This document shows positions 15,360-57,360 of a stretch of DNA of 64,000 nt, piece after piece. The position numbers and the translations under genes were made by a program. The DNA is taken from positions 1 to 64,000 of IMG/VR virus record IMGVR_UViG_3300027867_000003. One strand, 5' to 3'. Source of the stretch: a virus. Position 1 is the stretch's first letter. The number at the start of each line of letters is the position of its first letter. A model generated the notes under the pieces. The model saw nothing but the letters and a program-made list of their open reading frames with translations. It searched no databases and was not told the origin of the DNA.

Positions 15360-15665
15360 TTAACCGATGATCGGAACTACGGGCAGAACGGAGGGGTTAG
15401 ACCAGGTCCGCTCTGCCCCAAGTCGGATCTGGTTGTTGATTGCGGCCCGGAATTCGACGGCCAATGAATGGGGAATTTTTGGGCCAACGGGAATTGTGCC
15501 CCGAGTTATGTCATCAACCCAAACCTGATAGAGAGGTTCGGGGATGATATTGGGTCGAAGCATTTCCCGTTGTTCATCTCGGGAGAGCTTGTTAAAAGGA
15601 CGATAATCGGGAAATCCAACCGGAGTCCCCCCACTAGCCCGAACTGAGGGTTTCAGTTTAGTCAT
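15360..15665 (-). CDS. hypothetical protein, 101 aa
   Basis: Basic, proline-rich protein; the middle (LSRDEQREMLRPNIIPEPLYQVW) is helical. The start overlaps the stop of the small HTH gene upstream (ATGA). It lies between coat and the repeat protein. No family recognised; possibly a head-associated protein. Confidence 0.55.
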   Translation of the reverse strand: MTKLKPSVRASGGTPVGFPDYRPFNKLSRDEQREMLRPNIIPEPLYQVWVDDITRGTIPVGPKIPHSLAVEFRAAINNQIRLGAERTWSNPSVLPVVPIIG

Positions 15666-15880
15666 TCAAATAAGTCCCCTATGTCTATTGCCAAGTCGGT
15701 TTTAATCTTTCGGGGACCTCTTGGGGATGATGTGTCGAGAATCGGATCACCCCCTAAATCCCTCCAGCTTCGCCCTTTTCTTGTGTCGGTTATAGTTGGT
15801 TGGCTGATATTATATCGCTTAGCTAGAACGCTGGTTGTAAACAACGAGCCAACTATACCATGAACCGCTGAGCTTGGCAA
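15662..15880 (-). CDS. small HTH protein with C-terminal AIDIGDLFE tag
   Basis: 72 aa from a TTG at 15880; no ATG is available and the frame stays open further upstream to a stop. Residues 18-42 (VLAKRYNISQPTITDTRKGR) form a helix-turn-helix of the kind found at the end of HNH endonucleases. The AT-richer upstream DNA suggests a decayed endonuclease of which only the DNA-binding part survives. The protein ends in AIDIGDLFE, the tag seen on many right-arm proteins (see findings). It interrupts the capsid operon between coat and downstream genes. Confidence 0.55.
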   Translation of the reverse strand: MPSSAVHGIVGSLFTTSVLAKRYNISQPTITDTRKGRSWRDLGGDPILDTSSPRGPRKIKTDLAIDIGDLFE

Positions 15881-16036
15881 GCCTAATTCTCCATCTAATT
15901 CGGGATAGTATTTAGAACATCATTATCGATAGCAAATAGGGAATACGTCATTGTTTAGGTCGGAGGGTGTCGTATGACTAATCTGGTCGCCAGATACATC
16001 ATACAACACCAATCCGTCCAAACAAGCAAAGTCGGA

Positions 16037-17242
16037 TCAATTCGTGAGTCGAACGCCGAGTTCGGGATAGAAGCTGGACGTTCCGTACAAAATGTCGATG
16101 CGAGCTGGAAAAACGTCGTTCTGAATGTCGAACGCTCTAATAATTCGCATCGAGACGTTCTTATAATTCTCTCTCGCAGCGAAATCAACCCCTTCGGGAA
16201 TTTCCATCGGCACGGTCACGAGCCCGAAGGTGTCGCGAACGAAGGCCAGATTCTGGGCCACGGTGGCATTCTGTGTCCCAAGGACCGTGATAGCAGCGAG
16301 GTTGGCCGGAAGCGCATCGACCGTGGCATAGGGATTCGTGTTCGGCGCGGTGCCGACCACAGAGATCGACGGCGAGATCGGAATCACAGCATTTCCACTT
16401 CCGTCGGAATTAACCGCCGCCGTGACGACAAAGTTCTGGAGATTCCCCGTCGAAACTCGCGATTGCGGATTGATCGCATGGACACCGGCGATCGTGAAGA
16501 CATTGCCGGGGAGCAGAAGATTCGTGACGCTGGCGGTCCAACCATTGGTCACGAGTGACGAGCCGGTTTGGTTGGCGCCATTGACCACGCCGGCCGAAGT
16601 GCCCCAAGCACCGAGGGTCTCGGACTGGACGTTCTGGTCTCCATAAATCTCGAAGTTCGCAATGTTGGCGAGGAAGCCCTTGAGGGCAGGCTCGGCAACG
16701 GAGCGAACATAGAGGGAGATCAGGGCGGCATCAACGGACCAATAAGCGGCCGGATTGAGAACGAGATAGCGTCCGTCCTGCGGCACTGCTCCTTCGTCCA
16801 TCCGTTGGCCAACCGCCGCGACACTAGAATAGGAATTGGGCAAAGTCCCTGTGGTGCCCACTTTATTCCAAACGGCACTCCAATTGCCCATCACGTCGTA
16901 GTCGAGGCGGTTGGCGAGGGCCGCAGCGCCCGGCTTAAGATAGCGTTCGCTGAATTCCTCGATCGTCAGCGTCAGTTCGGTCGAACTGAATTCGAAATCC
17001 ACATGGCGCTGATTGGAAATGGAGATTGAAGTCGACGGCTCAGTGATGTTCTGAATCTGGAGACCTGGTCCAGTCGAAACCGTGAACCGATTGGGTTTGC
17101 GAACTGTCAGGGATGAGCCGATTTTGACGAACTGGTTTTCGAACTGTCGGTTAACCTTGCCGGTCATGACAAGGTTATTTTCGAGGAACACCAGTGTCTC
17201 TTTGCTGATGATGCTCGGGGTCAGAGTATTGTTGGAGGGCAT
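16037..17242 (-). CDS. major capsid protein, P22 coat (gp5) family
   Basis: 401 aa (P22 coat is 430). N-terminal KETLVFLENNLVMTGKVNRQ and FVKIGSSLTVRKPNRF, and C-terminal VSMRIIRAFDIQNDVFPARI then YPELGVRL, are hallmarks of the P22-type coat protein with the HK97 fold. A scaffold gene lies immediately upstream, as in P22. The middle (about 225-330) holds the inserted beta domain. Start ATG at 17242 is the only good choice. Confidence 0.88.
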   Translation of the reverse strand: MPSNNTLTPSIISKETLVFLENNLVMTGKVNRQFENQFVKIGSSLTVRKPNRFTVSTGPGLQIQNITEPSTSISISNQRHVDFEFSSTELTLTIEEFSERYLKPGAAALANRLDYDVMGNWSAVWNKVGTTGTLPNSYSSVAAVGQRMDEGAVPQDGRYLVLNPAAYWSVDAALISLYVRSVAEPALKGFLANIANFEIYGDQNVQSETLGAWGTSAGVVNGANQTGSSLVTNGWTASVTNLLLPGNVFTIAGVHAINPQSRVSTGNLQNFVVTAAVNSDGSGNAVIPISPSISVVGTAPNTNPYATVDALPANLAAITVLGTQNATVAQNLAFVRDTFGLVTVPMEIPEGVDFAARENYKNVSMRIIRAFDIQNDVFPARIDILYGTSSFYPELGVRLTN

Positions 17243-17441
17243 AGGTTAATTCCTCGCGAAGCGAATTGACAAAAGACCAGAGTTTCCAACTCCAGCCAGT
17301 TCTTGGGTTGAGTAACGCCTCCGCGAAGAGGACCGAAGCCCTCGGCCTAGGTTATACCGCCTAGTGTCGGTTGAGTACGACGCCCTCCGGCGAGAAAACG
17401 GACCCGAGATCAGAGTTCCCGGTGAACTCAGTGTTCAGATC

Positions 17442-18578: not shown

Positions 18579-18584
18579 CGGTAT

Positions 18585-20029: not shown

Positions 20030-20030
20030 C

Positions 20031-25742: not shown

Positions 25743-25810
25743 AAGGAATCCAGGGTTTCGAGAACAGAATGAATAAAGAGAACGAGAATCAGGATAATGA
25801 GGCTGCCCAT
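25739..25810 (-). CDS. 23-aa membrane peptide coupled to terminase
   Basis: ATG at 25810 overlaps the terminase stop (TGATG) and its own TGA overlaps the next ATG (ATGA), so it is linked on both sides. The peptide is MGSLIILILVLFIHSV plus a short polar tail: a single membrane helix. It is too short for routine gene finders. The double coupling is the main evidence. Confidence 0.5.
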   Translation of the reverse strand: MGSLIILILVLFIHSVLETLDSL

Positions 25811-32841: not shown

Positions 32842-33429
32842 TTAAAGGGCGATGTCGATGGCGGCGTCGGTCTTAGGCGCGACCTTCGCGCGCTTGCGAT
32901 CCTTCGCCGGGACGATTGCCCGACCGGACTCCTGCGCCGATTTCACGGCATTGGCGAAAATCCGGCTGCGGTGCTTCTCGGCCGTCTGCTCGACCACCAA
33001 CTTGCGCGCGTCCTTCTCGACCTTCGTGGCGTCCTTGCCGAGTTCGCCGAGCTTGCCGTCGACCGCATTAGCGACCGCGACGAAGTAGGCTGCCTCGTGC
33101 GCGTCGTTGTTCTTCGCGCTCGGCCCGTTGCCCGCGTACAGCTTGTCGATTGCCGATTGCAGGCTCTCGCCGTCGTAGTTCTGTCCGACGCGGTTGCGGG
33201 CGTATTCAGCCCACGACTGGAACAGATAGGGGCGGGCGGCCGGCTCGACGTTGGCGAAACCGGCGAGCGCCCGAAGGACGGCCAACATGCCGTTGACTTC
33301 GATCTCGACCTGATTGTCGTGGATGCCGAACTTGCGCGCCGCAGCGGCGGCCAGCCAGGCCTCATGATCAGGATTGGCCTCGCCAGCCGGCTCTACGGGG
33401 CGCACGTGGCTCTGTGTGCTCTGTGCCAT
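32842..33429 (-). CDS. hypothetical protein with C-terminal AIDIAL
   Basis: 195 aa, GC-rich compared with the rest of the arm. Alanine-rich helices in the middle, a basic stretch (KDRKRAKVAPK) and the terminal AAIDIAL, a variant of the AIDIDL tag. First gene of the left arm after the control region, so probably early expressed. Function unknown. Confidence 0.62.
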   Translation of the reverse strand: MAQSTQSHVRPVEPAGEANPDHEAWLAAAAARKFGIHDNQVEIEVNGMLAVLRALAGFANVEPAARPYLFQSWAEYARNRVGQNYDGESLQSAIDKLYAGNGPSAKNNDAHEAAYFVAVANAVDGKLGELGKDATKVEKDARKLVVEQTAEKHRSRIFANAVKSAQESGRAIVPAKDRKRAKVAPKTDAAIDIAL

Positions 33430-35693: not shown

Positions 35694-36217
35694 TGACCCC
35701 CGGCCTCCCGACCGTAGTCCTTTGCCTCCGCCCCGACGGGACAATCCAAGCCGAGGCGCCCGGAGCCAACGGAACCAGGGTCAAGTTGGACGACTCCCTG
35801 CTGCGGAATCTTCCCCCCCAGTATCAAGACTCCCTAGTTGAACAGCAGAACCGTCTGCGGCGCAAAGCCCAAGACGAAGCCCTTGAACGTAATCGCTGGG
35901 TCTTCAACTATGTCGCCGAGACTCACAACCACGGCTCCGAGTCGGGCGAAGCCTTTGCCCGTCGAACCGTCGGCCGCACTGTCCGAACCCCTCAGGGCAT
36001 TCGAAATGTCCTCGCCCGCTCTGGCTTTTCGAAGGCCGAGATCGACCTTATGGAATCTCGGGGCGAGCTGACGGGGAGCGCCTTTTTCTCGTCGATCGAA
36101 ACCGAGGACCGCATTGCCCGCATGAGGGAGACGGGAGAATCGACAGCCAAGGTCAAGCGGGCCAAATCCGGCCCCGTCGACCTGTCTCAGGCCGTCGACA
36201 TCACAGACTTGTTCTAG
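35693..36217 (+). CDS. hypothetical protein with C-terminal AVDITDLF
   Basis: 174 aa from ATG 35693 with AGGAG eight bases upstream. The middle contains a helical FSKAEIDLMESRGELTG region and the end is a basic linker (KVKRAKSG) followed by LSQAVDITDLF, a tag variant. A broken copy of the tag DNA lies downstream at 36524-36571. Function unknown. Confidence 0.65.
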   Translation: MTPGLPTVVLCLRPDGTIQAEAPGANGTRVKLDDSLLRNLPPQYQDSLVEQQNRLRRKAQDEALERNRWVFNYVAETHNHGSESGEAFARRTVGRTVRTPQGIRNVLARSGFSKAEIDLMESRGELTGSAFFSSIETEDRIARMRETGESTAKVKRAKSGPVDLSQAVDITDLF

Positions 36218-37493: not shown

Positions 37494-39168
37494 ACTATAC
37501 GCCGAGATCGAACGTCTGATCGGCCCCCCAAGGCCCTACGATCGAGAAAGTCAGAAGAATCCCCGATCCGACACCGAAGTCCGTCTCCTTCGTCAGTGGC
37601 TAATCGCCAAGGGCGTCCCTGAGGCCGCAGCCTATCGCGCCTCGACCTACGTCCTCAACGGTGCTTGGAACGGTCAGGATAGATACATCCGTCCAATGAT
37701 CGAAGAGGCGACTACGAAGACCGCATCTCGTCGTCGGACCTCAGCTGCTATTGACATCGGCGACGCCTTCGCGCCATCGGAGATCGACCAACATCTCGGT
37801 GTTCCAAAATCAAGGCCAGTCGCCCCAGACAGCCGCGAGACCAAGTCCTCCATCTTCGACGACTCCGCCGCCGACGACCTCGAACGTGAGATAACTCAGC
37901 GTCTGTCGGCCCGATTCGAAGCCCAGCGTCAGGACGACCTAAGGAGGATCAAAAGCCTCTCCGAGGCCCTGAGTTGCCGAGAGTCGGAAGTCGAACTGGC
38001 TGAAACCGAGGCTCGTCGTCAGGCTGAAGCCGCCATCGCCGACAATCAAAAGAAGATCGCCGCTGCAACCGAGGCACTCAGGGCAACAGCTCTATTGCTC
38101 GAAGCTGACGAAACAATCGCTCCCTCGACCCGAGAAGAGGCCGCTGGAGCACTGCGCCAGTCGGCCAATCTTCTCGAAGGCCGCGAAACGGCGATCGAAG
38201 GTCCGAAGTCCGAGGCTCCTGCAATCAGCACCGAGCCCCAGATCCCAGATACCCGGACAATCGCAGCCCGCGACCTATTTGGCAATGCTATCGGCGACGG
38301 CCTCCTAGTTCCCCGCTTCGCCGAAAGGACGGAATTCGTCCCCGCGATCGACCCCGATTACGTCTTCGACCCCGAGACGACCTTTTCCATCCTTCTCGGT
38401 TTCACCGCGAATCGACGGGTCTTAATCAGCGGCAAACACGGCACCGGCAAGACCAGTCACGTCGAACAGGTTGCCGCGAGACTGAATTGGCCCTTTGTGA
38501 GACTGAACCTAGATGGTCATATCAGCCGAACCGACCTAATTGGCCGCGACGCAATCGTCATCGAATCAGGATTGCAGAAAACCGCCTTCAAAGAGGGCAT
38601 TCTCCCTTGGTCGATGCAACAGCCAATGGCCCTCTGCCTCGACGAATACGACGCCGGACGACCCGATGTCCTATTCGTCGTCCAACGGCTTTTGGAAGCT
38701 GATGGTCGATTGACCATTGCCGAGCAAAATCGCGTCATCGAGCCGCATGAGGCATTCAGACTATTTGCAACCGCGAACACCGTCGGCTTGGGAGATTCCT
38801 CCGGTCTTTATCACGGAACCAATCCCCTCAATGCTGCCCAGATGGACCGTTGGTCAATCGTCGTCAAGCTCGACTATCTGCCCGCCGAGCACGAATGCCG
38901 GATAATCAAATCCAAATGCCCCACGCTTCGCGACGACACGATCGCCTCAATGGTAAATGTTGCCTCAGCAGTCCGAAAGCTCTTCGCCGCCGGAAAGATC
39001 TCGACCGTCATGAGCCCCCGCACCGTCATTATCTGGGCCGAAAACGCCGGTCTGATGCACAACGATCTTCGGCGGGCTTTCACCATGACCTTTCTGAACA
39101 AATGTGACGAAACCGAACAGCCCGACATCCTGAGCTGTTTCGACACCGCCTTCGGCCGGAGGCCGTGA
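37468..39168 (+). CDS. cobS: CobS-like AAA+ ATPase
   Basis: 566 aa, longer than bacterial CobS (about 330). The C-terminal 280 residues hold the MoxR/CobS AAA+ core: Walker A GKHGTGKT (residues 322-329), Walker B MALCLDEYDAG, then ANTVGLGDSSGLYHGT and NAAQMDRWSIVV, typical of CobS. Residues 1-90 are a small separate domain ending in basic RRR; at 93-101 sits AAIDIGDAF, an internal copy of the tag. Residues 140-250 are coiled coil. It should work with the VWA protein encoded next. No CobN is present, so B12 synthesis is unlikely. Confidence 0.8.
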   Translation: MSVPQRAAELYAEIERLIGPPRPYDRESQKNPRSDTEVRLLRQWLIAKGVPEAAAYRASTYVLNGAWNGQDRYIRPMIEEATTKTASRRRTSAAIDIGDAFAPSEIDQHLGVPKSRPVAPDSRETKSSIFDDSAADDLEREITQRLSARFEAQRQDDLRRIKSLSEALSCRESEVELAETEARRQAEAAIADNQKKIAAATEALRATALLLEADETIAPSTREEAAGALRQSANLLEGRETAIEGPKSEAPAISTEPQIPDTRTIAARDLFGNAIGDGLLVPRFAERTEFVPAIDPDYVFDPETTFSILLGFTANRRVLISGKHGTGKTSHVEQVAARLNWPFVRLNLDGHISRTDLIGRDAIVIESGLQKTAFKEGILPWSMQQPMALCLDEYDAGRPDVLFVVQRLLEADGRLTIAEQNRVIEPHEAFRLFATANTVGLGDSSGLYHGTNPLNAAQMDRWSIVVKLDYLPAEHECRIIKSKCPTLRDDTIASMVNVASAVRKLFAAGKISTVMSPRTVIIWAENAGLMHNDLRRAFTMTFLNKCDETEQPDILSCFDTAFGRRP

Positions 39169-40505
39169 TGTCCAATCCTGCATCGCTCGCCCTCCGAAAA
39201 CTAGCCGCGGTCCTCGACGACCTAAGCCCAGAGAACCAAGAGCCCGAGAACCAAGACCCCTGTGGGGATGAGAATAACGAAGATCAAAAAAAGGACTCCG
39301 AGGACGAAGGTGGCGCGAGTGATTCATCTGACTCGGATGGCGAAGACAGTGACGATGAAGATGACGGGGAGGATGATCCTGAGACTGATCCTGAGGCTTC
39401 AGACAACCCAACTGAAAGTTCGGCTAAAAGCCCCCCAACGGAAAAAAGCCCCCAACCATCAGCACCGACATCGAAACCTCTACCTCCTGCGCTCGACCAA
39501 CTCGTCGCCGCCATCATTCAGCGACCCGATGACCCCTCAGATTGTCCTCCTGATGGCCCGCTTCTCCTGATCGAACCCGAGAACGAGGAATATAAGATCC
39601 GTGACAAATCAAAGGACCGCACCATCCGGGCCGAAGATGGCTTCAGAGAATTCCACATCGACAAACAGAAGCATCGTCAAATGCTCGACGACCTCCTGCC
39701 CGATTCTCATAGCCTCGTCTCTCGTCTCTCGGCTCGCCTCCAACGGTCGATCCAGGCCCTCCAGACCCGGAGTTGGCAGTTCGACCTCGATGACGGCCAT
39801 CTCGACCCAAGTAGATTGGCTCGCATAGTCGCCAGTCCCCTAAGTCCTGTAGCCTATAAACAGGAAAAAGAGGCTCTGTTCAAAGAAACCACCGTCACTC
39901 TGTTAATCGACAACTCGGGCTCGATGGACCATGGTGGCAAAATCAATCTGGCCGCTACGACGGCCGACATCCTAACTCGCTGTCTCGAACGCTGCGGCGT
40001 CTCTGTCGAAGTCCTCGGCTTCACCGCCTCCGACAGCGGCAGACGACGCCATGTCCGTGGTCATCGTTGCAGCAGCCTCTTTCACATCATCTATAAATCC
40101 GCCACCATTCCATATCGTCGAACCAAAGACAACTTCGGCTTCATCATTGCCTCAAAGCCTGTCGTTCAAAATGTCGACGGGGAGGCCCTCGTCTGGGCCT
40201 ACAACCGCCTTATTCTCCGACCTCAGGAACGCAAAATCCTCATCGTTTTGTCGGACGGCGAGCCAGCCGACGGCTGCTCAGATTCCCGGCTTCTCGACTC
40301 CCATCTCCGTCAGATGATCCGCGAGATCGAAAGTCGAAATCTCGTCGAACTCCTCGCCATCGGCCTCGGCCATAATGTGACCCAATACTATCGCCACGCC
40401 ATTATGATCCACGATTTCGCAACCCTTCCTACGGTCCTTCTTAACGAACTCCATCCCATGTTAACGAAGGTCCGAGACAAAAACCCGAAACGCCGTGCGG
40501 CCTAA
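39168..40505 (+). CDS. cobT: CobT-like VWA-domain protein
   Basis: 445 aa. ATG 39168 overlaps the CobS stop (TGATG). Residues 25-85 are extremely acidic, as in CobT. The C-terminal VWA domain has the MIDAS LLIDNSGSM (Asp248), ILTRCLERCGVSVEVLGFT, GEALVWAYNRL, and VLSDGEPADG and VELLAIGLGHNVTQYY, all close to CobT. Together with the ATPase it probably forms a MoxR-VWA type remodelling machine acting on an unknown target. Confidence 0.82.
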   Translation: MSNPASLALRKLAAVLDDLSPENQEPENQDPCGDENNEDQKKDSEDEGGASDSSDSDGEDSDDEDDGEDDPETDPEASDNPTESSAKSPPTEKSPQPSAPTSKPLPPALDQLVAAIIQRPDDPSDCPPDGPLLLIEPENEEYKIRDKSKDRTIRAEDGFREFHIDKQKHRQMLDDLLPDSHSLVSRLSARLQRSIQALQTRSWQFDLDDGHLDPSRLARIVASPLSPVAYKQEKEALFKETTVTLLIDNSGSMDHGGKINLAATTADILTRCLERCGVSVEVLGFTASDSGRRRHVRGHRCSSLFHIIYKSATIPYRRTKDNFGFIIASKPVVQNVDGEALVWAYNRLILRPQERKILIVLSDGEPADGCSDSRLLDSHLRQMIREIESRNLVELLAIGLGHNVTQYYRHAIMIHDFATLPTVLLNELHPMLTKVRDKNPKRRAA

Positions 40506-43393: not shown

Positions 43394-43449
43394 GAGACCC
43401 GGGTCGAACACGTCCGAGCGATGTCGCAGCGTATCGGAGTCAGAAGACC

Positions 43450-43773
43450 ATGACCGACGAACCCCCATTCGAGCCCCTCGTGCTCAATGAGTCGATTATC
43501 CGAGACTCAGTGGCCTCTGGCAATGTCGATCGACTGATCTCGCTCTTTCAATTCCTAAAAGACGGCCGCGACCGCGCCGAATTTCAGGTCAAATGTCTCG
43601 AACACCAGATCGCGTTGCTCGAAAAAGCCACCAAAGCGATCACGGAACCCTTGAGACCTGCAACTCGGTCAAACGAAAAAGATGTTTTCATCACCCCTAA
43701 TCGTCCCACAGGTCCAAAGACCAAACCAGTAACCGAGGATCCTCTGTCGGCCGCGATCGACATAGACCTCTAA
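43450..43773 (+). CDS. hypothetical protein with C-terminal AIDIDL
   Basis: 107 aa from ATG 43450 (a GTG at 43390 is possible). The first 60 residues are helical (LISLFQFLKDGRDRAEFQVK), then a Pro/Lys-rich linker and LSAAIDIDL at the very end. Same helical-domain + linker + tag plan as other tagged proteins. Function unknown. Confidence 0.58.
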   Translation: MTDEPPFEPLVLNESIIRDSVASGNVDRLISLFQFLKDGRDRAEFQVKCLEHQIALLEKATKAITEPLRPATRSNEKDVFITPNRPTGPKTKPVTEDPLSAAIDIDL

Positions 43774-44506: not shown

Positions 44507-44540
44507 TTGTATGCACTCTCCGCTCGCCGGATCGTATGCC
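44507..44540 (+). promoter_or_regulatory. tandem TTGTATGC / TCGTATGCC elements
   Basis: TTGTATGCA at 44507-44515 and TCGTATGCC at 44532-44540, 25 bases apart, in a gene-free stretch 70-100 bases before the ATG at 44612. Only internal site of this type in the right arm after 35.6 kb; it may restart transcription for the tagged gene cluster. Confidence 0.45.
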
Positions 44541-44611
44541 CCCTCCGCCGCCCTTGCCATCGCCCCTCCCCTCCATTATCATCCCAACCAACCACCAAAG
44601 GCCACACCCCA

Positions 44612-45043
44612 ATGCCCGACCAACCAACCACCCCAACGAAAGAACAAGAACTCCCCAACGAGAAATCCGAAATCGAGACTGAGATCCTTCTCTCCGACAA
44701 AAAGACCTTCTCTGCCGACGAACTAGAAGCCGGCTCCATCCGCTATGGCAATCGCGGCATATGGCTACTTCCCCTTCGATCGGGCAATCTGGCCCTCTTC
44801 GACAGGGGATTTAATCTAATCTCGATAATTGACGATCTTCCCACAGCGGCCGAGATCAGTCTCCTGGCTCAAGAATCCGAGGCTCGTTGTCGAGCCGACA
44901 TGAGGGCCTACGAATTAAGTCATTTCTTGGGCGAGCCGTCGGACAGACAACTCGTTCGAGACATTCGCCGGGCCGAACGAACCCCAGTTCCCCGATCACC
45001 AAAACAGTCCCCGCTATCTCAGGCCATCGACATCGACCTCTAA
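44612..45043 (+). CDS. hypothetical protein with C-terminal AIDIDL
   Basis: 143 aa from ATG 44612; the frame is open further upstream through the promoter-like element, which is not expected to be coding. A beta domain (GSIRYGNRGIWLLPLRSGN) is followed by a helix, a Pro/Arg linker and LSQAIDIDL. Function unknown. Confidence 0.6.
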   Translation: MPDQPTTPTKEQELPNEKSEIETEILLSDKKTFSADELEAGSIRYGNRGIWLLPLRSGNLALFDRGFNLISIIDDLPTAAEISLLAQESEARCRADMRAYELSHFLGEPSDRQLVRDIRRAERTPVPRSPKQSPLSQAIDIDL

Positions 45044-45061: not shown

Positions 45062-45340
45062 ATGCCCCAAATTCAATCAATCAGCCTCGCAGACCTCATC
45101 GACCACGAGTCCCGCCGAATCGCAATCGACCTAATTCAACAGAAACTCGAATCCGAGGGACTCCCTCTCCCAAAGGACAGCAGCCTCGCAGTCCACGTTG
45201 ACCAAATTCTCCTTCTCAGGCCCGAGATCAGAACTCAGGCCGAGAAAGTCGTTCTCGCCCGCCAAGACGCCTTTACAGAGAGCCTCCAAGCTATCGGAAT
45301 CGAAGTCCAGATCGTCGAACCCATCGACATCGACCTCTGA
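45062..45340 (+). CDS. hypothetical protein with C-terminal PIDIDL
   Basis: 92 aa, helical, charged. Ends VEPIDIDL. The DNA at the tag (CCATCGACATCGACCTCT) is identical to that of the preceding gene apart from the stop codon. Nothing else recognised. Confidence 0.6.
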   Translation: MPQIQSISLADLIDHESRRIAIDLIQQKLESEGLPLPKDSSLAVHVDQILLLRPEIRTQAEKVVLARQDAFTESLQAIGIEVQIVEPIDIDL

Positions 45341-45354: not shown

Positions 45355-45624
45355 ATGGTGAAACGAGCGCTACGTCGACACCAAGCACAGTCCCATATGC
45401 GGCGCCGATTAAAAGAAGACCGTAATCAACATTACGCCAATCTGACCTGCCTCTGTTGGACTGATCCCCGAACGATGGCGCGGTTCAAAGAACAGCCGTG
45501 CCGTTGCAGTTGTTACGGCTGCGGTAATCCACGGTATCAGGTAAAGGGGGAGGAACGCTTTACGATGCAAGAACGCCGACACCTATTGAGCGATGACAGA
45601 GCCTTAGAGGCCAATCTAAAATGA
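45355..45624 (+). CDS. small zinc-binding protein, CGNPR family
   Basis: 89 aa. RRHQAQSHMRRRLKED at the start, PCRCSCYGCGNPRYQVKGE in the middle and ERFTMQERRHLL at the end match a small bacterial/phage family with C.C..CGNPR and TxQE motifs, likely zinc-binding. Function unknown. Confidence 0.7.
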   Translation: MVKRALRRHQAQSHMRRRLKEDRNQHYANLTCLCWTDPRTMARFKEQPCRCSCYGCGNPRYQVKGEERFTMQERRHLLSDDRALEANLK

Positions 45625-45887
45625 CCCAATTATCTAACATAGCCCGCTCAATTCTCCGACAAGCTGCTTTATCCGAATTCGGCCTAGAGATCGGGATTAC
45701 GGCAACGTCAGACAAGATCATCACACCGGCCCTACGGGCGAAGCAAATTCTATATCGCTTTAAGTCCGAAGATGCTGATTTCTCGAATCTCCGAATTGAT
45801 CTCAGTCCCACCGATCCCGACAAATATCTCTGGATCATCAACACAGGACCTCGAATTCCGACCACAGCTCTGGAGATCGACCTCTGA
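45621..45887 (+). CDS. hypothetical protein with C-terminal ALEIDL
   Basis: 88 aa. ATG overlaps the previous stop (ATGA). Helix, then beta with KYLWIINTGPR, then TTALEIDL, a diverged tag. Its stop overlaps the next ATG (TGATG). Function unknown. Confidence 0.58.
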   Translation: MTQLSNIARSILRQAALSEFGLEIGITATSDKIITPALRAKQILYRFKSEDADFSNLRIDLSPTDPDKYLWIINTGPRIPTTALEIDL

Positions 45888-46122: not shown

Positions 46123-46335
46123 ATGCCCCGCTACATCACCCACGCCCGAGATACCCGAGAACTTCTGGCCGAGTTCCAGAGCGACATAACCCGGCGACTC
46201 GATACCCTCGACGGAATCCTAAAAACCATGAAACCCAACGCGGCAGAATCGAGCCGAATAAGTCGCGCCCGGCGCGAATTGCTCGACCTACAAGACTACT
46301 GGCGGAACATCGAAATCGGGGGAGATCGCGAATGA
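46123..46335 (+). CDS. small coiled-coil protein, 70 aa
   Basis: Helical with heptad-like spacing (LLAEFQSDITRRLDTLDGIL). Basic. Coupled to the next gene by ATGA. No family recognised. Confidence 0.52.
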   Translation: MPRYITHARDTRELLAEFQSDITRRLDTLDGILKTMKPNAAESSRISRARRELLDLQDYWRNIEIGGDRE

Positions 46336-46604
46336 CCGACAGCGAAGCCCCAACCTCTCCTCTCACAGAGGCGACCCCCGATTCCGTCGACGAACTCCTG
46401 GATCTGATGAATCGTTCGATGGTTGCCGGAATGCCCGAAGCCATTACGGACGACAAATTGGTCAAACTAATCGCAGCCTATCGGCGCCAAGCTGAGAATT
46501 GGCTCATTCAGGAAGCCGAAAAGCGTGCCGCCGGCCCCCGAAAGCGCCAACCAAAGACCTTCGACACCAGCCAAGCCATCGACATCGGCGACCTCTTCCA
46601 ATGA
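46332..46604 (+). CDS. small protein with C-terminal AIDIGDLFQ
   Basis: 90 aa. Helical core (DELLDLMNRSMVAGM), basic linker (GPRKRQPKT) and the tag TSQAIDIGDLFQ. Stop overlaps the exonuclease start (ATGA), so the two are made together. Possible role: partner of the exonuclease; unproven. Confidence 0.6.
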   Translation: MTDSEAPTSPLTEATPDSVDELLDLMNRSMVAGMPEAITDDKLVKLIAAYRRQAENWLIQEAEKRAAGPRKRQPKTFDTSQAIDIGDLFQ

Positions 46605-47722
46605 CTGAGATCATAGACAACAATGAACCCGAACCACTAAGCCTTGGAAAGCAAATGGTAGAATCTATGACAATTCATTCTGAAATCGAGATAGATTCAA
46701 TGACCGATGGCACAGGTCTGACGAGCCTCGAAGCCACAGTTCTAGAGGCCCAGCGACAGTCCTCTGAGGCCCTGTCTTCCGAAGGCCGACAATCCTTCTC
46801 GACCAAAATCCCCAACCTTCAGATTGCCTGGGATTCGACGAGCCTCAACGATCTAAAAAAGTGCCCCCGCTATTATCAATATTCCATGGTCCTAGGTTAC
46901 GGAAGTCCATTCGCTAATGCTCATCTGACCTTCGGTGGCCTTTTCGCCAAATCACTAGAAACCTATAATCGCCTGATGGCAAAAACCGACTCCGATCACG
47001 AAAAAGCCCTAATTGAAGTCATTCGCTTTCTAGTTTCCGCCACTTGGGACTCCGAGATAAATCGTCCTTGGGTATCCGACGAGCCAACAAAGTCCCGCGA
47101 TACCCTTCTCCGCACCGTTATTTGGTATCTCGATTTCTTCAAAACCGATTCACTGAAAACCCTGACCTTTCCTGATGGAACCCCCGCAGTTGAGGTTCCG
47201 TTTAGACTCCATTTAGGCGATATTGATCTCTTTGCCCCAAGTGGCGAGGAATTCCTGCTCTGCGGTTATCTCGACAAAATCGTCATTTGGAACGACGGAA
47301 TCTACATAGTCGACCAGAAGACAACCAAATCCCCCCTCGATGATACTTATTTCAAACAATATAATCCACATAATCAGATGACCCTATATTCCATTGCTGG
47401 AAAAACAGTTCTAGAACACGAAATCGACGGAGTTATCATCGACGCGGCACAGATTCTCGTCGAAGGGACCCGATTTAGACGGCGCCCAATTCCAAGGTCT
47501 ACAGAACAGCTTGAAGAATGGCTCGTCGATCTGAAATATTATCTCAAAGAAGCCATAACTTATGCCATTGACAATCACTGGCCAATGCGAGAATCGTCTT
47601 GTGGCTTCGGTCGGAATCAATGCACCTTTCGCCCCGTCTGCTCCGCAGATCCGTCGGCCCGACAGGAAATGCTCGACAGCTTCTATGTCAGGAGAATCTG
47701 GAACCCCCTAGAGACCCGCTAA
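46601..47722 (+). CDS. RecB/Cas4-family PD-(D/E)XK exonuclease
   Basis: 373 aa from ATG 46601. LLCGYLDKIVIWNDGIYIVDQKTT supplies the nuclease Asp and D-x-K motifs in a segment listed here only for its key residues (GYLDK, VDQKTT). KKCPRYYQY near residue 88 and CGFGRNQCTFRPVC near the C-terminus give four Cys for an Fe-S cluster as in Cas4/AddB. Likely end-resecting nuclease in phage recombination together with the Sak4-like protein downstream. Confidence 0.78.
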   Translation: MTEIIDNNEPEPLSLGKQMVESMTIHSEIEIDSMTDGTGLTSLEATVLEAQRQSSEALSSEGRQSFSTKIPNLQIAWDSTSLNDLKKCPRYYQYSMVLGYGSPFANAHLTFGGLFAKSLETYNRLMAKTDSDHEKALIEVIRFLVSATWDSEINRPWVSDEPTKSRDTLLRTVIWYLDFFKTDSLKTLTFPDGTPAVEVPFRLHLGDIDLFAPSGEEFLLCGYLDKIVIWNDGIYIVDQKTTKSPLDDTYFKQYNPHNQMTLYSIAGKTVLEHEIDGVIIDAAQILVEGTRFRRRPIPRSTEQLEEWLVDLKYYLKEAITYAIDNHWPMRESSCGFGRNQCTFRPVCSADPSARQEMLDSFYVRRIWNPLETR

Positions 47723-48015: not shown

Positions 48016-48462
48016 ATGCCCGTCTTCGCCCTCATCGACCCAAAGGCCCGATCAATCGACCTAGAGGATTTCCCTAGCTACGATCTAGCTCTCGACAAAG
48101 TTGGGCTAAAAGCTGGTTCCGTCGACTTCGGCACCGTGGCTCAGTGGAAAGACGGTCGAAATCTCTCAATCATCGTCTATGAATGGAGCCTCATGGACAG
48201 CGACCCTGAAGCCTATTTCGCCTGCAACGGACGTCTCTACAATGGCCCCGCCGTGATGTATATGTCCGACGCCGAGGGTGAGACAATCGACTTCTCGCCG
48301 GCCTTGGCCGAACACTTCAAGGCCGACTGTTCTCACTTCCTCTGGCTCAGTTCGGTCGAAGCCGCCGAAAAGGCCATCATGGAGAACAAAGTCATTCGAC
48401 CCCAGACGGCCATCAACGGAGTTCCAACGTGGCAATGGAATAAGCCGAAGGAGTCTGTCTGA
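48016..48462 (+). CDS. hypothetical protein, 148 aa
   Basis: Mixed alpha/beta, acidic, with aromatic-rich segments (SHFLWLSSVEAAEKAIME). Placed just before the Sak4-like gene. No family recognised. Confidence 0.55.
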   Translation: MPVFALIDPKARSIDLEDFPSYDLALDKVGLKAGSVDFGTVAQWKDGRNLSIIVYEWSLMDSDPEAYFACNGRLYNGPAVMYMSDAEGETIDFSPALAEHFKADCSHFLWLSSVEAAEKAIMENKVIRPQTAINGVPTWQWNKPKESV

Positions 48463-48463
48463 G

Positions 48464-49450
48464 ATGCCCAGCCTCCTTGATCCAATCTCCGAATCCGCCA
48501 AGATCCTCCTAATCGGAGATCAGTCGGCCGGAAAGACCGGGGCAAAAGCCAGCCTCATCGCAATGGGCTATAAGCTCCTGATGATCGACACCGACAAAGG
48601 CTTCAAAATCCTCAGAGCCCTCTTGACCGATTCTCGATATCCATATAAAGCCTATATGGAAAAACATGGCATCCGACCTGAGGAAAATATCAGCTACATT
48701 CCGATTGACGTCCCGATGGACTTCAAATCCGAGAACATCAAAGGGACTCAGTGGAACATTCTAAGTCCTATGTCGTCGTCTGCCTGGTCAACCGTCATCA
48801 ATCTCCTTCGTGAGTGGAAAGACGGTCAGAAGTCCTGGGGCTCTATCAACGACTGGGACAGCGACACAATTCTCGACTTCGACACCATGTCAACATTGGC
48901 TGAGATTGCCAAATATTGGGTCCAAGACATGAACGGCCATCTTGGAGCCCTCGTCGACGATCACGGCCGAGACACCGGCGGGGCGCAAGAAATGATAATG
49001 CGCCTGATGACCAAAGTCACATCATCATCGGTGCGATGTAATGTCATCATCACAGCACATATAAAGCGAGTCGACATGTCAGCCGATGTCCCCCAGTCCC
49101 CAGAACAGAGGCTCAGAGAAAAAAAGGCCATCGACCCAAAGGGCTTTCCCGCCGTTATCGGACAGGCCGTCAGTCCATATATCGGAAAGAAATTCAACGA
49201 CCAATTCATCGTCAAACAAGACGGCGACGGCAACCGAGGAACCCGAAGAATCTACACCGTGCCAACTGACAACGTTGGGGCCAAGAACTCCGTCTATCTT
49301 GAACCATCTTATGACCTTACCAGTGGCCTCGCCGAAATATTCTGCGCCCTTCAATACAAAGACCCCCCAACGGATCTCATTAACGCCATGAAACCGAAGT
49401 CAGAAGGCCCACCCCCAGGTCCCATCGCCAGTGGCTTTGGAAAACGATAA
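48464..49450 (+). CDS. Sak4-like RecA-family ATPase
   Basis: 328 aa. Walker A LLIGDQSAGKTG (residues about 14-25), then GYKLLMIDTDKGFKIL, a Walker B-like ILDFDTMSTL and NVIITAHIKRVDM, typical of phage Sak4 single-strand annealing/recombination ATPases. It sits with a RecB-like nuclease and a probable ssDNA-binding protein, a standard recombination set. Confidence 0.75.
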   Translation: MPSLLDPISESAKILLIGDQSAGKTGAKASLIAMGYKLLMIDTDKGFKILRALLTDSRYPYKAYMEKHGIRPEENISYIPIDVPMDFKSENIKGTQWNILSPMSSSAWSTVINLLREWKDGQKSWGSINDWDSDTILDFDTMSTLAEIAKYWVQDMNGHLGALVDDHGRDTGGAQEMIMRLMTKVTSSSVRCNVIITAHIKRVDMSADVPQSPEQRLREKKAIDPKGFPAVIGQAVSPYIGKKFNDQFIVKQDGDGNRGTRRIYTVPTDNVGAKNSVYLEPSYDLTSGLAEIFCALQYKDPPTDLINAMKPKSEGPPPGPIASGFGKR

Positions 49451-49830: not shown

Positions 49831-50322
49831 ATGGCCGAACCAATGGACCTTCGCGATCTGCTTGACGCCCCAGGGACATCGTTTCCTGACCGCCCGAGTC
49901 TCCCCGGCTCAAAGACCTTCTACGGGAAGCTCCTTTCCGTCGAAGCAACTCACAGCCAGGTGAAGGGAACCCCTGCGTTCCGCTTCAACGTCCGTCTCAC
50001 GGACCCTGGTTCCGATGTTCCCAAGCCCGCCCTCGACGCAATCACGGGCGCCGGTTTCAACCTCAGCGACTACCAGGTCTACTATGACTTCTGGCTGACC
50101 CCCGGCTCCATGTCCATGCTGTGGCGCTTTCTGGAAGGTGGTGGTTTCGACCGGAACAAGGGCCTCCGGGAGCAGATGAAGCTCGACGACAGTTATAACC
50201 CCACCGCCGATACCAACGACCTGTTCCGGGGCATGGACATCATCTGCCGAACCCAACAGGCGAACGACCAGGGGCGGGTCTTCAGCAACCTCGACATGAT
50301 TGCCTTCAGGAAAGCCGCCTAA
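49831..50322 (+). CDS. probable ssDNA-binding protein (DUF669-like)
   Basis: 163 aa. KTFYGKLLSVEATHSQVKGT, FRFNVRLTDPG and FSNLDMIAFRKAA give an OB-like layout similar to DUF669-type proteins that accompany Sak4 ATPases. AAAGGA lies nine bases before the ATG. The typical acidic tail of bacterial SSB is absent. Role inferred from neighbours. Confidence 0.6.
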   Translation: MAEPMDLRDLLDAPGTSFPDRPSLPGSKTFYGKLLSVEATHSQVKGTPAFRFNVRLTDPGSDVPKPALDAITGAGFNLSDYQVYYDFWLTPGSMSMLWRFLEGGGFDRNKGLREQMKLDDSYNPTADTNDLFRGMDIICRTQQANDQGRVFSNLDMIAFRKAA

Positions 50323-50784: not shown

Positions 50785-50787
50785 ACC

Positions 50788-52949: not shown

Positions 52950-53158
52950 GAAAGATTTCCCAAATGACCCTCTTTCTAGTTGCCTATTTCATTCTCAACA
53001 TAACCATCGCGTTCAAATTCCTCATCGACAGCCCGGGTCTAAAACAGAGTGTCGCCTTCATCTGTGCCTATCTTATAGCCCTTGTCGGAATTCCCGTCCT
53101 AATTGCAATCTTCATCAAAGTCAGTTTCGATCGCCTCTATAACAGAAAACCCCTTTGA
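52940..53158 (+). CDS. small membrane protein, two TM helices
   Basis: 72 aa (64 from ATG 52964). TM1 TLFLVAYFILNITIAFKFLI, TM2 VAFICAYLIALVGIPVLIAI, basic ends. Overlaps the methyltransferase stop. Size and topology resemble holins, but no endolysin was found. Second such gene within 1.6 kb after the overlapping one at 51374. Confidence 0.58.
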   Translation: MPLRKISQMTLFLVAYFILNITIAFKFLIDSPGLKQSVAFICAYLIALVGIPVLIAIFIKVSFDRLYNRKPL

Positions 53159-53174
53159 AAGGCAACTTAGAGAT

Positions 53175-54518
53175 ATGAAGGTCGTTATAGTCGGCGAAGC
53201 CTGGGGGAGGCATGAAGAACAGATGTCCCATGCCCTCGTAGGACCCTCGGGTCGCGAATTGACCCTCGAACTCGGTATCTCCGGCCTCGCCCCCTTCATG
53301 CAAATTCAATGTCATGAATGCAAAGAGATGGTCGACTTCACCGACGGCACCTGCGATAATTGCAAAAGTCGCATCTGGCCCAATGAATTCCATCTTCTCG
53401 ACTATTGGAAGAAACTGCGAACCGAACATGGTATTGCCGTCACCAACGTCTTCAACCGAAGGCCGTTTGCCCTTTATAATTTCCCCGACATCGGCTGGTC
53501 AACTTGCAAGATCATCGAAGATCGCGGAAAGTTTAGCAAAATTAAGCGCCTCTCCGACGACACCGAGCACACCGTCATCACAAAATCTGTCATCCAGAAT
53601 GACCTCGGTGGCTTCTTTTCTCCCGAGAGACAGACCCCGATGCCCCCGTGGAAAGCATCAAAGATAGTCAGCGGAACACACCTAAAGCGCGAGTTCTTCC
53701 ATCACGTCGAGAGCCTATGGACGGAAATCCGCGACCTCGACCCGACATTGATCCTCTGTCTCGGCAACGCCGCCTGCTGGGCCATCCTAGGTCAGACAAA
53801 AATCACCGCCCTCCGCGGCACAGTTTCTATGAGTGCGAAGGACCTGACAGGATTTGAGAAGAAATGCCTCGCAACTTTTCATCCTGCCGCCGTCCTTCGC
53901 GCCCCTCCCATGCGAGCGAGCGTCATTCCCGACCTGACGAAGGCCAAACGCGAAGCCGAGTTCCCCGAAATACGACGCCCCGAACGATGGCTGACAATCC
54001 CGAGTCCCAACGAGGCCGGAATAAAAGAAGGCTATGAATGGTTAAAACGACCGACTCAATCGTATTCCTGCGACATCGAAACAATCAAACGTCAAATATC
54101 TATCATCGGTTTTGGAAGATCCCCCTCAGATGCCCTGGTTATCCCCTTTAGGGATGCAAACGTCGATAACCAAGGTCATATCGTCGATGTCGGAAAGATC
54201 GCCACTGATCTCGGATTCCCTTCAACCAATATAAATTATTGGCCCACTCCGGAACTAGAATTCGAAGCCTGGAAACTCGCTATAGCAGCCCTCCAATCAG
54301 ACAAAGAGAAGATATTCCAAAACGGTATATATGATTTATCTTATATGGTCGGAATGGGCATATTTCCAAAGAACATCGCCCACGATACGATGTTGTGGCA
54401 TCATAGTCGATTCATTGAACTACCTAAGAGCTTAGGATTTTTAGGCTCTATATACTGTAATGAAATTTCGTGGAAACAGATGTCCCGACACAGCAACTCT
54501 CTAAAAAGAGACGAATAA
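53175..54518 (+). CDS. uracil-DNA glycosylase-like / 3'-5' exonuclease protein
   Basis: 447 aa from ATG 53175. Residues 1-270 are a UDG-superfamily domain: VGEAWGRHEEQ, ALVGPSGREL, TNVFNRRP, LGNAACWAILG and TFHPAAVLR, with an inserted zinc ribbon (CHECKEMVDFTDGTCDNC). Residues about 285-440 are a DnaQ-like exonuclease with motif I DIET and motif II QNGIYDLSYM, then HDTMLWHH and LPKSLGFLGS. The third exonuclease motif is encoded in the next frame. In related phages these domains are fused to the polymerase. Confidence 0.78.
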   Translation: MKVVIVGEAWGRHEEQMSHALVGPSGRELTLELGISGLAPFMQIQCHECKEMVDFTDGTCDNCKSRIWPNEFHLLDYWKKLRTEHGIAVTNVFNRRPFALYNFPDIGWSTCKIIEDRGKFSKIKRLSDDTEHTVITKSVIQNDLGGFFSPERQTPMPPWKASKIVSGTHLKREFFHHVESLWTEIRDLDPTLILCLGNAACWAILGQTKITALRGTVSMSAKDLTGFEKKCLATFHPAAVLRAPPMRASVIPDLTKAKREAEFPEIRRPERWLTIPSPNEAGIKEGYEWLKRPTQSYSCDIETIKRQISIIGFGRSPSDALVIPFRDANVDNQGHIVDVGKIATDLGFPSTNINYWPTPELEFEAWKLAIAALQSDKEKIFQNGIYDLSYMVGMGIFPKNIAHDTMLWHHSRFIELPKSLGFLGSIYCNEISWKQMSRHSNSLKRDE

Positions 54519-54520
54519 CC

Positions 54521-55999
54521 ATGCCAACAATAGCGTTCCACGAGATCGAAATTAATAAAGCCAATCAGGCCATATATTGCGGCGGGGACAATTTTCTCAC
54601 CAAAGAGATAGACCAAGTCAGGCAGAATTTGCGAGACAATGACACTCTCATATATGATCTTGAGCGAGCCCTGCAAGGCCCCGTCCTAGAACTAATGCTC
54701 CGAGGCTTCCGCGTCGACATAGACGAACGCGATAAGGCCATAGAGCTAGTCACACAGAAGCGAGCCTCAGTCGAGAAAATCCTCTCCGCCATCATAACAG
54801 CGATCCAGGGTTCCTATGATCCCAAGTTCCCCCGATCAGACAAACAACTGCGAACTCTGTTCTACGATCATATGAGGCTAATTCCAATTGAAAAGCACAT
54901 AAACGGTGAGACCAAGAGACCAATGGACAGAGAGACATTGGAGAAACTCGAACTCCAAGATAAGTGGGCCGCCCCCATCATCAATGCAATTCTCCAGTTT
55001 CGCGATCATTCGAAGTCCCTCGAAGTCCTCGAAAAGGAAATCGACTCCGATTTCCGCTGGCGATGCTCATATAATATCGGAGGGACAAATACGGGTCGTT
55101 TTAGTAGTTCCAAATCCCCCTTTGGAACAGCCAGTAATTTTCAAAATATTCATGAGGACCTTAGACGGGTCTTCATCCCCGATTCGGGATATAAGCTCTA
55201 TGGCATCGATAAGGCCCAGAGCGAATCTCACGACGTCGCCTGGTTCTGCGGTACAATTTTAGGCGACTGGACCTATCTCGACGCCTGCCAATCAGGCGAC
55301 TTACATACCTTCGTAACCCGCATGTGCTATCCTGATTGGGCCTGGACCGGAGACCTTAGAAAGGACCGTGCTTTAGCTGAACGTCGTTTTTATCGTCTCT
55401 TCACCTATCGTGACGTCTCAAAGCGCGTCGGCCATGCTACGAACTACCTTGGAACTCCCAAAGAGATTTCTCGACAAACTCGGCTACCCCAGAATATTGC
55501 TGAGGAATTCCAAGAACGCTATTTCACCGCCTTCCCGTGCATCCCGCAGATGCACCAATGGATTTCTCAAGAACTTCAACGCCACAGATTCTTAGTCAAT
55601 TCCTTCGGTCGCAGGAGAGACTTCTTCGACCGTCCAGATAGCCGCGAGACACTGAAATCGGCTGTCGCCTATATGTTTCAATCAGCGACCGCAGACGCCT
55701 TGAATTTGGGTATGTACCGTCTTTGGAAGAACATGAGAAGCAAAGTCCAACTCCTCTCCCAGCTTCACGATGCCGTTTACTTCCAAGCCCCCATCACGGA
55801 CGAAGAATCCGAAAGAACCCTAATCCGTGAATGCGTCAATTGGGTTCAGATCACCCAGAGAGATCCGAAATCAGGTCGCTCTATGACCATCCCAGGAGAG
55901 CCGGTCGGCGGCTTCAATTGGGCCCACCGATTTAGAATCCGAGAAGACGGCACGAAGGAAGAATGGAACAAACATGGCCTAGACTCAATTAGGATCTAA
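54521..55999 (+). CDS. DNA polymerase, family A, polymerase part
   Basis: 492 aa from ATG 54521; the frame is open from 54470, overlapping the previous gene by 49 bases in -1. It begins with the missing exonuclease motif (AIYCGGDNFLTKEI) and carries polymerase motif A (LYGIDKAQSESHDVAW), motif B (SKRVGHATNYLGTP) and motif C (SQLHDAVY, HDA instead of HDE). It should be the replicative polymerase, acting with or fused to the preceding protein. CTAAAAAG in the overlap could allow a -1 slip. Confidence 0.8.
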   Translation: MPTIAFHEIEINKANQAIYCGGDNFLTKEIDQVRQNLRDNDTLIYDLERALQGPVLELMLRGFRVDIDERDKAIELVTQKRASVEKILSAIITAIQGSYDPKFPRSDKQLRTLFYDHMRLIPIEKHINGETKRPMDRETLEKLELQDKWAAPIINAILQFRDHSKSLEVLEKEIDSDFRWRCSYNIGGTNTGRFSSSKSPFGTASNFQNIHEDLRRVFIPDSGYKLYGIDKAQSESHDVAWFCGTILGDWTYLDACQSGDLHTFVTRMCYPDWAWTGDLRKDRALAERRFYRLFTYRDVSKRVGHATNYLGTPKEISRQTRLPQNIAEEFQERYFTAFPCIPQMHQWISQELQRHRFLVNSFGRRRDFFDRPDSRETLKSAVAYMFQSATADALNLGMYRLWKNMRSKVQLLSQLHDAVYFQAPITDEESERTLIRECVNWVQITQRDPKSGRSMTIPGEPVGGFNWAHRFRIREDGTKEEWNKHGLDSIRI

Positions 56000-56003
56000 A
56001 GAA

Positions 56004-56390
56004 ATGGAAATCGTAGAACCCGGTCACTGGTTTAAGCTGAACAACTATTCCGGGATTTCAGAGAGCACAACTTTGTCGAAATCTCAATTAGTTTTCATGC
56101 ATAGAGTTGGTGACAATTACCCAGGAAACCACGGCTATCCGTATGATGGGACAAATTGTCAGGAAGTCCTAAGAGCCTTGATTCACCGTTGCATTTACTT
56201 AAATGGTCAGATTCCTTGCCGAGAAACAGAGAACATAATCGAGAATCTTCGTTATAGTCTAATCTTGTTCGAAGAAAGAGCAGCTAGGGTTCACGGACTA
56301 AAACTCCCCCCAAATCTTCCAAAAGATATAGAAAATACACCAACTTGCCGCCAGTGCGGTCATATAGTATGTAATCACAAGAAATTCTGA
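56004..56390 (+). CDS. conserved phage protein with PGN...GT..QEVLRALI motif
   Basis: 128 aa. LVFMHRVGDNYPGNHG, DGTNCQEVLRALIHRCIYL and the C-terminal CRQCGHIVCNH match a family of small phage proteins of unknown function; the C-terminal cysteines probably bind zinc. Starts four bases after the polymerase stop. Confidence 0.68.
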   Translation: MEIVEPGHWFKLNNYSGISESTTLSKSQLVFMHRVGDNYPGNHGYPYDGTNCQEVLRALIHRCIYLNGQIPCRETENIIENLRYSLILFEERAARVHGLKLPPNLPKDIENTPTCRQCGHIVCNHKKF

Positions 56391-56417
56391 ATCTGAGGAT
56401 CGAGAAAATTTGCCCAG

Positions 56418-56597
56418 ATGCCTTCTGACTGGATCACCGACTTTGTGGCATCCACAGAGACCATGCGAAGCCCGGATTCATTTCGCCTTTGGGGCGGCAT
56501 CGCCACAATTGCCGCCGTTCTCGAACGCCGCGTATGGACGGAGACCGACGTCGACAAACTGAAGAGGTTAGGAAAATGTCTAGAAAAAGGTGTATAA
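56418..56597 (+). pseudogene. orphaned 5' end of the P-loop ATPase gene
   Basis: 59 codons; the first 48 (MPSDWITDFVASTETM then RSPDSFRLWGGI and VLERRVWTETDVDKL) align with the start of the intact gene at 57119, 34 of 47 residues identical. After DKL the frame runs into HNH element DNA and stops. GC-rich phage codon use, unlike the replacement copy. This is the original start, cut off by the insertion; it may still be translated as a short peptide. Confidence 0.8.
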
Positions 56598-57360
56598 TCT
56601 GCGGTAATCCCGTTCATGGGAATGGGCTGTGCTCGAAACACTATCAGCGCCAACGCTTTCATGGAGACCCAAATATAATCTTAACTGTTCAAAATAAGGG
56701 GCTATTATGTAGCATTGAAGCTTGCAAAAAATCAGCTTTCACGAAAGGATTCTGCCGACAACACTACGACTCTATCACGGTATACGGCCGGGTCGACTTA
56801 ATAAGACGAGAAAAAGGAACAGGATCTATACATAGCGGCTACGTTTTCATAACTGTAAATGGAGAACAGGTCAGAGAGCACATATATTTAGCTGAAAAAG
56901 CATTAGGAAGAAAATTACCAGAAGGGGCGGTTGTCCATCACATGAATGAAGACGGAACCGACAATCATACTCCATTCAATTTAGTAATCTGTCCAGATAG
57001 AGCCTATCATAACCTACTTCATACCAGAATGCGGCAACTAAGTGGAGTCCCAGCTGTACGACGCAGAAAATCTATTACTGAACATGCTATAGACATTGAT
57101 CTATAGACCACTTTCTAGATGTCAGACTGGATAGAATCTTTTATGGATTCAACTTCCTCCCTTAGGAGTCCCGACTCATTCCGACTGTGGACCGGAATAA
57201 GCATATTAGCGTCTGTTCTAGAACGACGAGTATGGACAGAAACAGATATAGATAAACTGCACCCTAATTTGTATGTTGTACTGGCTGGAGGTCCAGCCAG
57301 CGGAAAAACTAACATGATAAAGAGATCCAGAGCCATGCTAGCTCCAATTAAAGGACTATT
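56564..57360 (+). mobile_element. HNH insertion with recoded target 5' end
   Basis: AT-rich block inserted after codon DKL of the original ATPase gene. It consists of the HNH gene, a short spacer and a new, AT-rich copy of the first about 80 codons of the ATPase gene. Around 57355-57365 the base composition returns to phage style. The left boundary is the codon after CTG at 56559-56561; the right boundary is approximate. Confidence 0.7.
56576..57106 (+). CDS. HNH homing endonuclease with C-terminal AIDIDL
   Basis: 176 aa from ATG 56576 (AGG just upstream). Two zinc-binding repeats (CIICGNPVHGNGLCSKHY, then CSIEACKKSAFTKGFCRQHY), a GYVFITVNG strand, and the HNH core AVVHHMNEDGTDNHTPFNLV. AT-rich. 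Ends TEHAIDIDL, the phage tag written with different codons (GCTATAGACATTGATCTA). It interrupts the ATPase gene start. Confidence 0.85.
   Translation: MSRKRCIICGNPVHGNGLCSKHYQRQRFHGDPNIILTVQNKGLLCSIEACKKSAFTKGFCRQHYDSITVYGRVDLIRREKGTGSIHSGYVFITVNGEQVREHIYLAEKALGRKLPEGAVVHHMNEDGTDNHTPFNLVICPDRAYHNLLHTRMRQLSGVPAVRRRKSITEHAIDIDL

Follow-up and report, generated by a model that had tools for sequence, protein, structure and literature searches.

A genome-specific C-terminal peptide on unrelated phage proteins, a probable docking tag

Why should proteins that are otherwise different end in the same few residues? The question is raised by a stretch of 64,000 nucleotides from a virus, positions 1 to 64,000 of IMG/VR record IMGVR_UViG_3300027867_000003, which makes up most of that 84,797-base record and which we call the window. 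Nine of its proteins end in variants of AIDIDL or AIDIGDLF, and a further copy of the peptide lies inside an AAA+ protein. The analysis of this peptide in the window and in related phages leaves us highly confident that it is a docking tag; its partner is a matter of weaker preference.

Nine C-terminal tags and one internal copy

Each of the nine C-terminal tags reported in an earlier note on this DNA was recovered. They are given below by window position, with the endings of counterparts in three related genomes, G009, G010 and G017.

15665..15691, minus strand: AIDIGDLF(E), C-terminus of a 72-residue open reading frame (ORF; 15662-15880), tail LAIDIGDLFE, in AT-richer codons (GCA ATA GAC ATA GGG GAC TTA TTT)
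32845..32862, minus strand: AIDIAL, C-terminus of a 195-residue protein (32842-33429), tail AAIDIAL; ortholog ends DAVMEL (G009), SAALDL (G010)
36191..36214, plus strand: AVDITDLF, C-terminus of protein 35690-36217, tail QAVDITDLF; a weak G009 homolog (E-value 0.001) ends GVVLEI and the G010 positional counterpart LTLAIDL
37747..37770, plus strand: internal copy AIDIGDAF (residues 94-101), inside the AAA+/CobS-like protein 37468-39168
43753..43770, plus strand: AIDIDL, C-terminus of protein 43351-43773, tail AAIDIDL; orthologs QVLDI (G009), LALDL (G010), VIEVEIGDI (G017)
45023..45040, plus strand: AIDIDL, C-terminus of protein 44507-45043 (family F3), tail QAIDIDL; orthologs AQVLDI (G009), LAIDL (G010), AIEIEIP (G017)
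45320..45337, plus strand: PIDIDL, C-terminus of protein 45062-45340 (family F4), tail EPIDIDL; orthologs AQVLDI, ALDLDIDP, VIEIEIP
45867..45884, plus strand: ALEIDL, C-terminus of protein 45621-45887 (family F2), tail TALEIDL; the tag is an optional extension in F2
46332..46604, plus strand: family F1 protein with a helical N-terminal part, a linker and the tag AIDIGDLFQ at 46575-46601, tail QAIDIGDLFQ
56576..57106, plus strand: HNH homing endonuclease, C-terminal extension with AIDIDL at 57086-57103, tail HAIDIDL

In profile comparison the tagged carriers had no Pfam or PHROG match. A Pro/basic linker, described earlier as usual before the tag, is clear in seven of the nine proteins and unclear in those ending at 45340 and 45887. 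The internal copy follows SRRRTSA in the CobS-like protein and lies at residues 94-101.

Chance is not sufficient to account for these endings. The pattern [APV][ILV][DE]I..[LF] stands at the C-terminus of 9 of the 92 predicted window proteins, whereas the internal positions of those proteins predict 0.027 such endings and shuffled tails 0.021, with at most 2 matches in any of 2000 shuffles. The codons show that the peptide is conserved rather than the DNA: third positions differ in 53-54% of comparisons between tags and first and second positions in 8-18%, and the HNH endonuclease spells its tag in AT-rich codons (GCT ATA GAC ATT GAT CTA TAG), as the earlier note had observed.

The shared tail could still be a by-product of DNA, namely an embedded ribosome-binding site, a regulatory repeat or a recent copying of gene ends. 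Such a case is real in Cobavirus T5S1-k141, where small ORFs end xPxEFLS over the AAGGAG/GGGGAG of the next overlapping gene, and some window tags are nearly identical in DNA. However, third codon positions diverge far above the others, and tags are found on either strand, on two endonucleases unrelated to each other and within the AAA+ protein. Shine-Dalgarno-like sequences lie downstream of the stops of the tag genes and not within the tags, which rules out an embedded ribosome-binding site. We consider a DNA-level origin very improbable. The Cobavirus tails (locus L019, 4067-14989) are a separate observation: about 14 small ORFs share an ending that is the next gene's ribosome-binding site, and many are paralogs. 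For these two reasons they were rejected as a second example of tags.

Tags in related phages and their local flavours

Relatives were found with a profile built from the window polymerase and that of Caulobacter phage Kuura, which yielded 63 related loci at 70 to 34% identity. Exact searches of IMG/VR for AIDIGDLF and for AIDIDL followed by a stop had returned unrelated or chance matches and no tagged relative, because the relatives use other flavours of the tag. A single-protein CobT query found no relative, a terminase query found relatives without tags only, and a scan of genome contigs gave one weak, uninformative match.

The most constant tag carrier among the families is F1, which has 31 members, including those of the window phage and of cultured Kuura, and sits just upstream of a PD-(D/E)XK nuclease. 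Of the 30 relatives that have the replication block and a sequenced upstream region, 28 carry F1 with its tag. In almost every member the C-terminus is a linker followed by a hydrophobic-acidic tip, such as LSLDDLGL, INLDDLGI, LDLSDLDD, SLDIQELDF, NIDDLFSE or AIDIGDLFQ. AlphaFold predicts a helical N-terminal part and, at lower confidence, a tail; F1 has no convincing Pfam or PHROG match, and neither its profile nor its model matches a solved structure convincingly.

This C-terminal enrichment in related phages bears out the docking proposal of the earlier note, and in addition the flavour of the tag proved genome-specific: AIDIDL/AIDIGDLF in the window phage, VLDI in G009, ALDL/AIDL in G010 and VIEVEI in G017. 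In G009 a VLDI-type tail stands on eight proteins, among them QVLDI, AQVLDI (in two families), GEIMDI, VVLEI, AVEI, VMEL and, on a LAGLIDADG endonuclease, GIVLDI; five fit a narrow pattern for which 0.0 are expected. Seven G010 proteins end in SAALDL, SLALDL, LTLAIDL, LAIDL, LAMDL, EIDL or ALDLDIDP, and those of G017 end in VIEVEIGDI or VIDVEIPEF or have AIEIEIP or VIEIEIP slightly before the end. Most tailed proteins of these three genomes are orthologs of tagged window proteins. The internal AAA+ motif keeps its place and takes the local flavour (AAIDIGD in the window, DVLDLDS in G009, EGIDLDK in G010). Matching tails also occur on unrelated proteins of Kuura (NIDDLFSE on Kuura_036 and SIDDLLSTL on Kuura_051) and as pairs in G025 (ILGDDELML and ILDDEELML), G030 (TLSLDDLGL and VLSLFDLGL), G015 (PELDLSDLDD and PELNLDDLED) and G018 (AASAGDLGL and ATAGDLGL).

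Three comparisons measure this uniformity. Across the 26 loci with both families, F1 and F2 tails are more alike within a locus than after permutation (11.46 versus 9.70, p=0.002). With the window phage excluded, the best other tail of each genome resembles its F1 tag with a combined Fisher value of 7e-12 when internal 10-mers are the control; with the C-termini of other genomes it is 0.002, limited by the number of controls. A table of seven families (six tagged families and the AAA+ copy) in the window phage, G009, G010 and G017 scored 20.0 versus 15.07 +- 0.58, reached by 0 of 2000 permutations; it is the weaker argument because it was compiled by hand from matches already seen. A first binomial within-genome test was blunted by tagged genes among its controls and was replaced. 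The tags, their C-terminal enrichment, their sharing within a genome and their exchange between relatives are established by these data.

The tag can also be gained and lost. Some F2 members carry it as an extension and others stop after the common domain. Database matches to the HNH endonuclease, whose start is probably ATG 56576 and not TTG 56489, end about 20 residues before its C-terminus, where the untagged homolog in Podoviridae ctDrO704 also stops; phage matches to the 181-residue LAGLIDADG enzyme of G009 cover residues 4-153 at most. Since known homologs lack the tag or do not cover the tail, two unrelated mobile endonucleases have probably gained the local tag. Around the HNH gene (56418-58327), the first ~50 codons of a DUF3987 primase-like gene are duplicated, one copy on each side.

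Known systems and candidate partners

The window encodes a P22-like coat, portal and scaffold, a CobS/CobT-like pair and a replication block, which comprises the PD-(D/E)XK nuclease, Sak4, an OB protein, a ParB-methylase, a UDG-exonuclease, a family A polymerase and the DUF3987 primase-like protein. The genes that bear on a partner are the following.

39165..40505, plus strand: CobT-like VWA protein, a disfavoured candidate partner (Pfam CobT_C 4e-51)
46499..47722, plus strand: PD-(D/E)XK nuclease, adjoins F1 in every F1 locus
48278..49450, plus strand: Sak4-like annealase/recombinase, candidate partner (phrog_124; PMC5928155)
49831..50322, plus strand: predicted OB-fold SSB-like protein next to Sak4, no acidic tail (AlphaFold predicted local distance difference test 94.8; best Foldseek matches PrgE and bacterial SSBs)
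54470..55999, plus strand: family A DNA polymerase, the query used to find relatives, candidate partner

The statement in the earlier note that no described system resembles the tag was too strong. In phage T4 the proteins gp43, gp33 and gp55 have interchangeable clamp-binding C-termini with divergent linkers, and internal placement in a fusion is tolerated (PMC2988020). Both cases have unrelated phage proteins with a common hydrophobic-acidic C-terminal peptide. In T4, however, the known carriers number three and bind a phage clamp, whereas here up to ~10 carriers occur with no recognisable clamp, and the flavour varies between phages and is uniform within each. We use T4 as the closest working analogy and claim membership neither in the T4 type nor among beta-clamp ligands. 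In phage HK620 the last six residues of SSB, which are acidic-hydrophobic, recruit the Sak4 recombinase (PMC5928155); the window likewise has Sak4 and an SSB-like OB protein within one block, but its OB protein (49831-50322) lacks such a tail and unrelated proteins bear the tips. Encapsulins offer a further likeness: their cargo-loading peptides place one C-terminal peptide on unrelated proteins behind a flexible linker. For the tags here no capsid link is apparent.

The evidence disfavours three partners: the capsid, CobT and a clamp bound through the canonical beta-clamp motif. The host beta sliding clamp would explain the tag as a motif that recruits phage proteins to replicating DNA. Beta-clamp motifs are similarly short, lie in the disordered tails of many proteins and have hydrophobic anchors, like the L-x-L or L-F that follows Asp in these hydrophobic-acidic ends; RQLVLGL of Pol IV is similar, and AMSLF of the delta subunit lacks Gln (PMC11139829). 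Clamp motifs can also lie internally (PMC2988020), and no DnaN-type phage clamp was found: the DnaN N-domain had no match in 25 records in which controls matched. A gp45 profile matched nothing, controls included, and is uninformative on a phage clamp. Yet the tags vary by genome, and none of the 35 listed fits the consensus Q-phi-x-[LM]-x-[FL]: its fixed spacing is absent, and so is the Gln, whose contribution is large (PMC11139829). Bacteria share a conserved clamp pocket, which makes genome-specific flavours like VLDI or VIEVEI unexpected. The sliding clamp named as a possible partner in the earlier note thus finds neither the defining Gln motif in any tag nor a recognisable DnaN in the relatives, and because of both a clamp can be argued only by analogy; we regard the host clamp as unlikely.

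That note had also named the CobS/CobT machine, whose VWA metal site might bind the Asp or Glu of the tag as integrins bind LDV-type peptides. Every compact tag does have an acidic residue between hydrophobic ones, and the window phage encodes both proteins, a CobT with the site DNSGS and an AAA+ protein with the internal tag. Outside the window phage, however, the CobT family was seen in unrelated phages only and in 0 of 23 related IMG/VR records, AAA_5 is missing from most of these records while tags persist, and in G009 and G010, the two nearest relatives, the gene beside the AAA+ gene lacks a DxSxS metal site where one would be expected. CobS/CobT is therefore not a general partner. A VWA_2 profile was uninformative, as it also misses the window's own CobT-like protein. 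Nor do tails recur among the proteins of CRP-810 and ICP2, unrelated phages with CobS/CobT. We think this pairing improbable; the AAA+ protein looks like one more tagged client.

Another host factor, such as a protease or RNA polymerase, might read the tag as a mark for turnover or transcription control. C-terminal hydrophobic peptides are common degrons, the tagged genes are mostly early and small, and the phage encodes an HslV-like peptidase. The internal copy, however, speaks against a strictly C-terminal degron, we know of no degron of this sequence, lineage-specific flavours would be unexpected for a conserved host protease, and an HslV homolog turned up in only one related locus; a host reader is thus doubtful at best. 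Loading of cargo into the capsid has two points in its favour: AIDIGDLF resembles encapsulin cargo-loading peptides in general form, and one tagged gene adjoins the P22-like coat gene. But the carriers are for the most part early genes, VLDI and similarly short flavours do not fit, and G009 and G010, in which their own capsid proteins were not identified, retain tags with no detectable homolog of the window coat protein; for this last reason the partner is probably not the capsid, an explanation to which we give almost no weight.

Several genes of the record are of interest apart from the tag. The portal gene (20031-23417, minus strand) is longer than its homologs in loci L007 and L008 by ~346 residues (372-717); these match phage terminase profiles, which suggests an intein. 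Two minus-strand genes (25810-27243 and 29441-30364) both match terminase large subunit profiles, and homologs of the second are longer in G009 and G010. The HslV-family peptidase (28263-29189, minus strand; phrog_1040) has no recognisable HslU partner. At record positions 75354-76688 (L005) lies a protein with phosphoribosylglycinamide synthetase (GARS) domains, possibly of a purine pathway.

A proposed hub in the replication block

What stays constant across the tag-bearing relatives is the replication/recombination block. We favour, though by no great measure, a docking motif with a co-evolving phage-encoded hub as the whole explanation, and one such hub in this block is somewhat the likelier place for the partner. 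In this model, a short linear motif, usually on a flexible basic or Pro-rich tail, would attach many small early proteins, the AAA+ protein and the homing endonucleases of one phage to one partner. Partner and tag would co-evolve, so that each lineage holds its own version (AIDIDL/AIDIGDLF, VLDI, ALDL, VIEVEI, LSLDDLGL and others), and genes newly joining a genome would acquire the local one. The likeliest hub would be among the PD-(D/E)XK nuclease, Sak4, the SSB-like OB protein and the split family A polymerase. Sak4 is a candidate because the adjoining SSB-like protein lacks an acidic tail of its own.

Three features of these genes stand on their own. Sak4 of more distant relatives (L060, L080, L052 and others) has its own shared C-terminal motif, (E/x)TGLADYFK. 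The gene at 49831-50322 represents a widespread uncharacterised family beside Sak4, predicted at high confidence to be an SSB-like OB-fold. The DNA polymerase (53103-55999) is apparently split into a UDG and exonuclease-like protein with a conserved LKRDE end and a separate family A polymerase domain, an arrangement kept in most relatives.

Several points weigh against a hub and its code. Binding, a single common partner, its origin in the phage and its place in the block are what we infer, and no partner emerged. A general tag profile trained on F1 was only 2-3.5 times enriched at other C-termini, with modest power, and distant tags such as LSLDDLGL and SILFDDL are joined to AIDIDL or VLDI by position and family, not by unambiguous alignment. 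The flavour table was hand-compiled, and less selected tests give weaker values, with p about 0.002. Genome-specific flavour could also stem from different hosts, and some tags of one genome are similar in DNA, so that a few may be copies.

A bolder and more tentative extension of the hub model is a lineage-specific peptide identity code, in which the hub would admit only password-bearing proteins to replication and recombination and mobile endonucleases would have to acquire the local password. If true, the code could keep phages that infect the same cell separate. The docking reading would also account for the extra tails on the unrelated homing endonucleases of these phages. The common tag unites at least six unannotated families and offers an entry point to an uncharacterised replication/recombination block, while cultured Kuura, a phage of Caulobacter, makes the partner searchable. 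If the hub exists, phage early proteins would be organised round it by a peptide code that is uniform in each genome and changes between relatives; we know of no described phage system with such a code.

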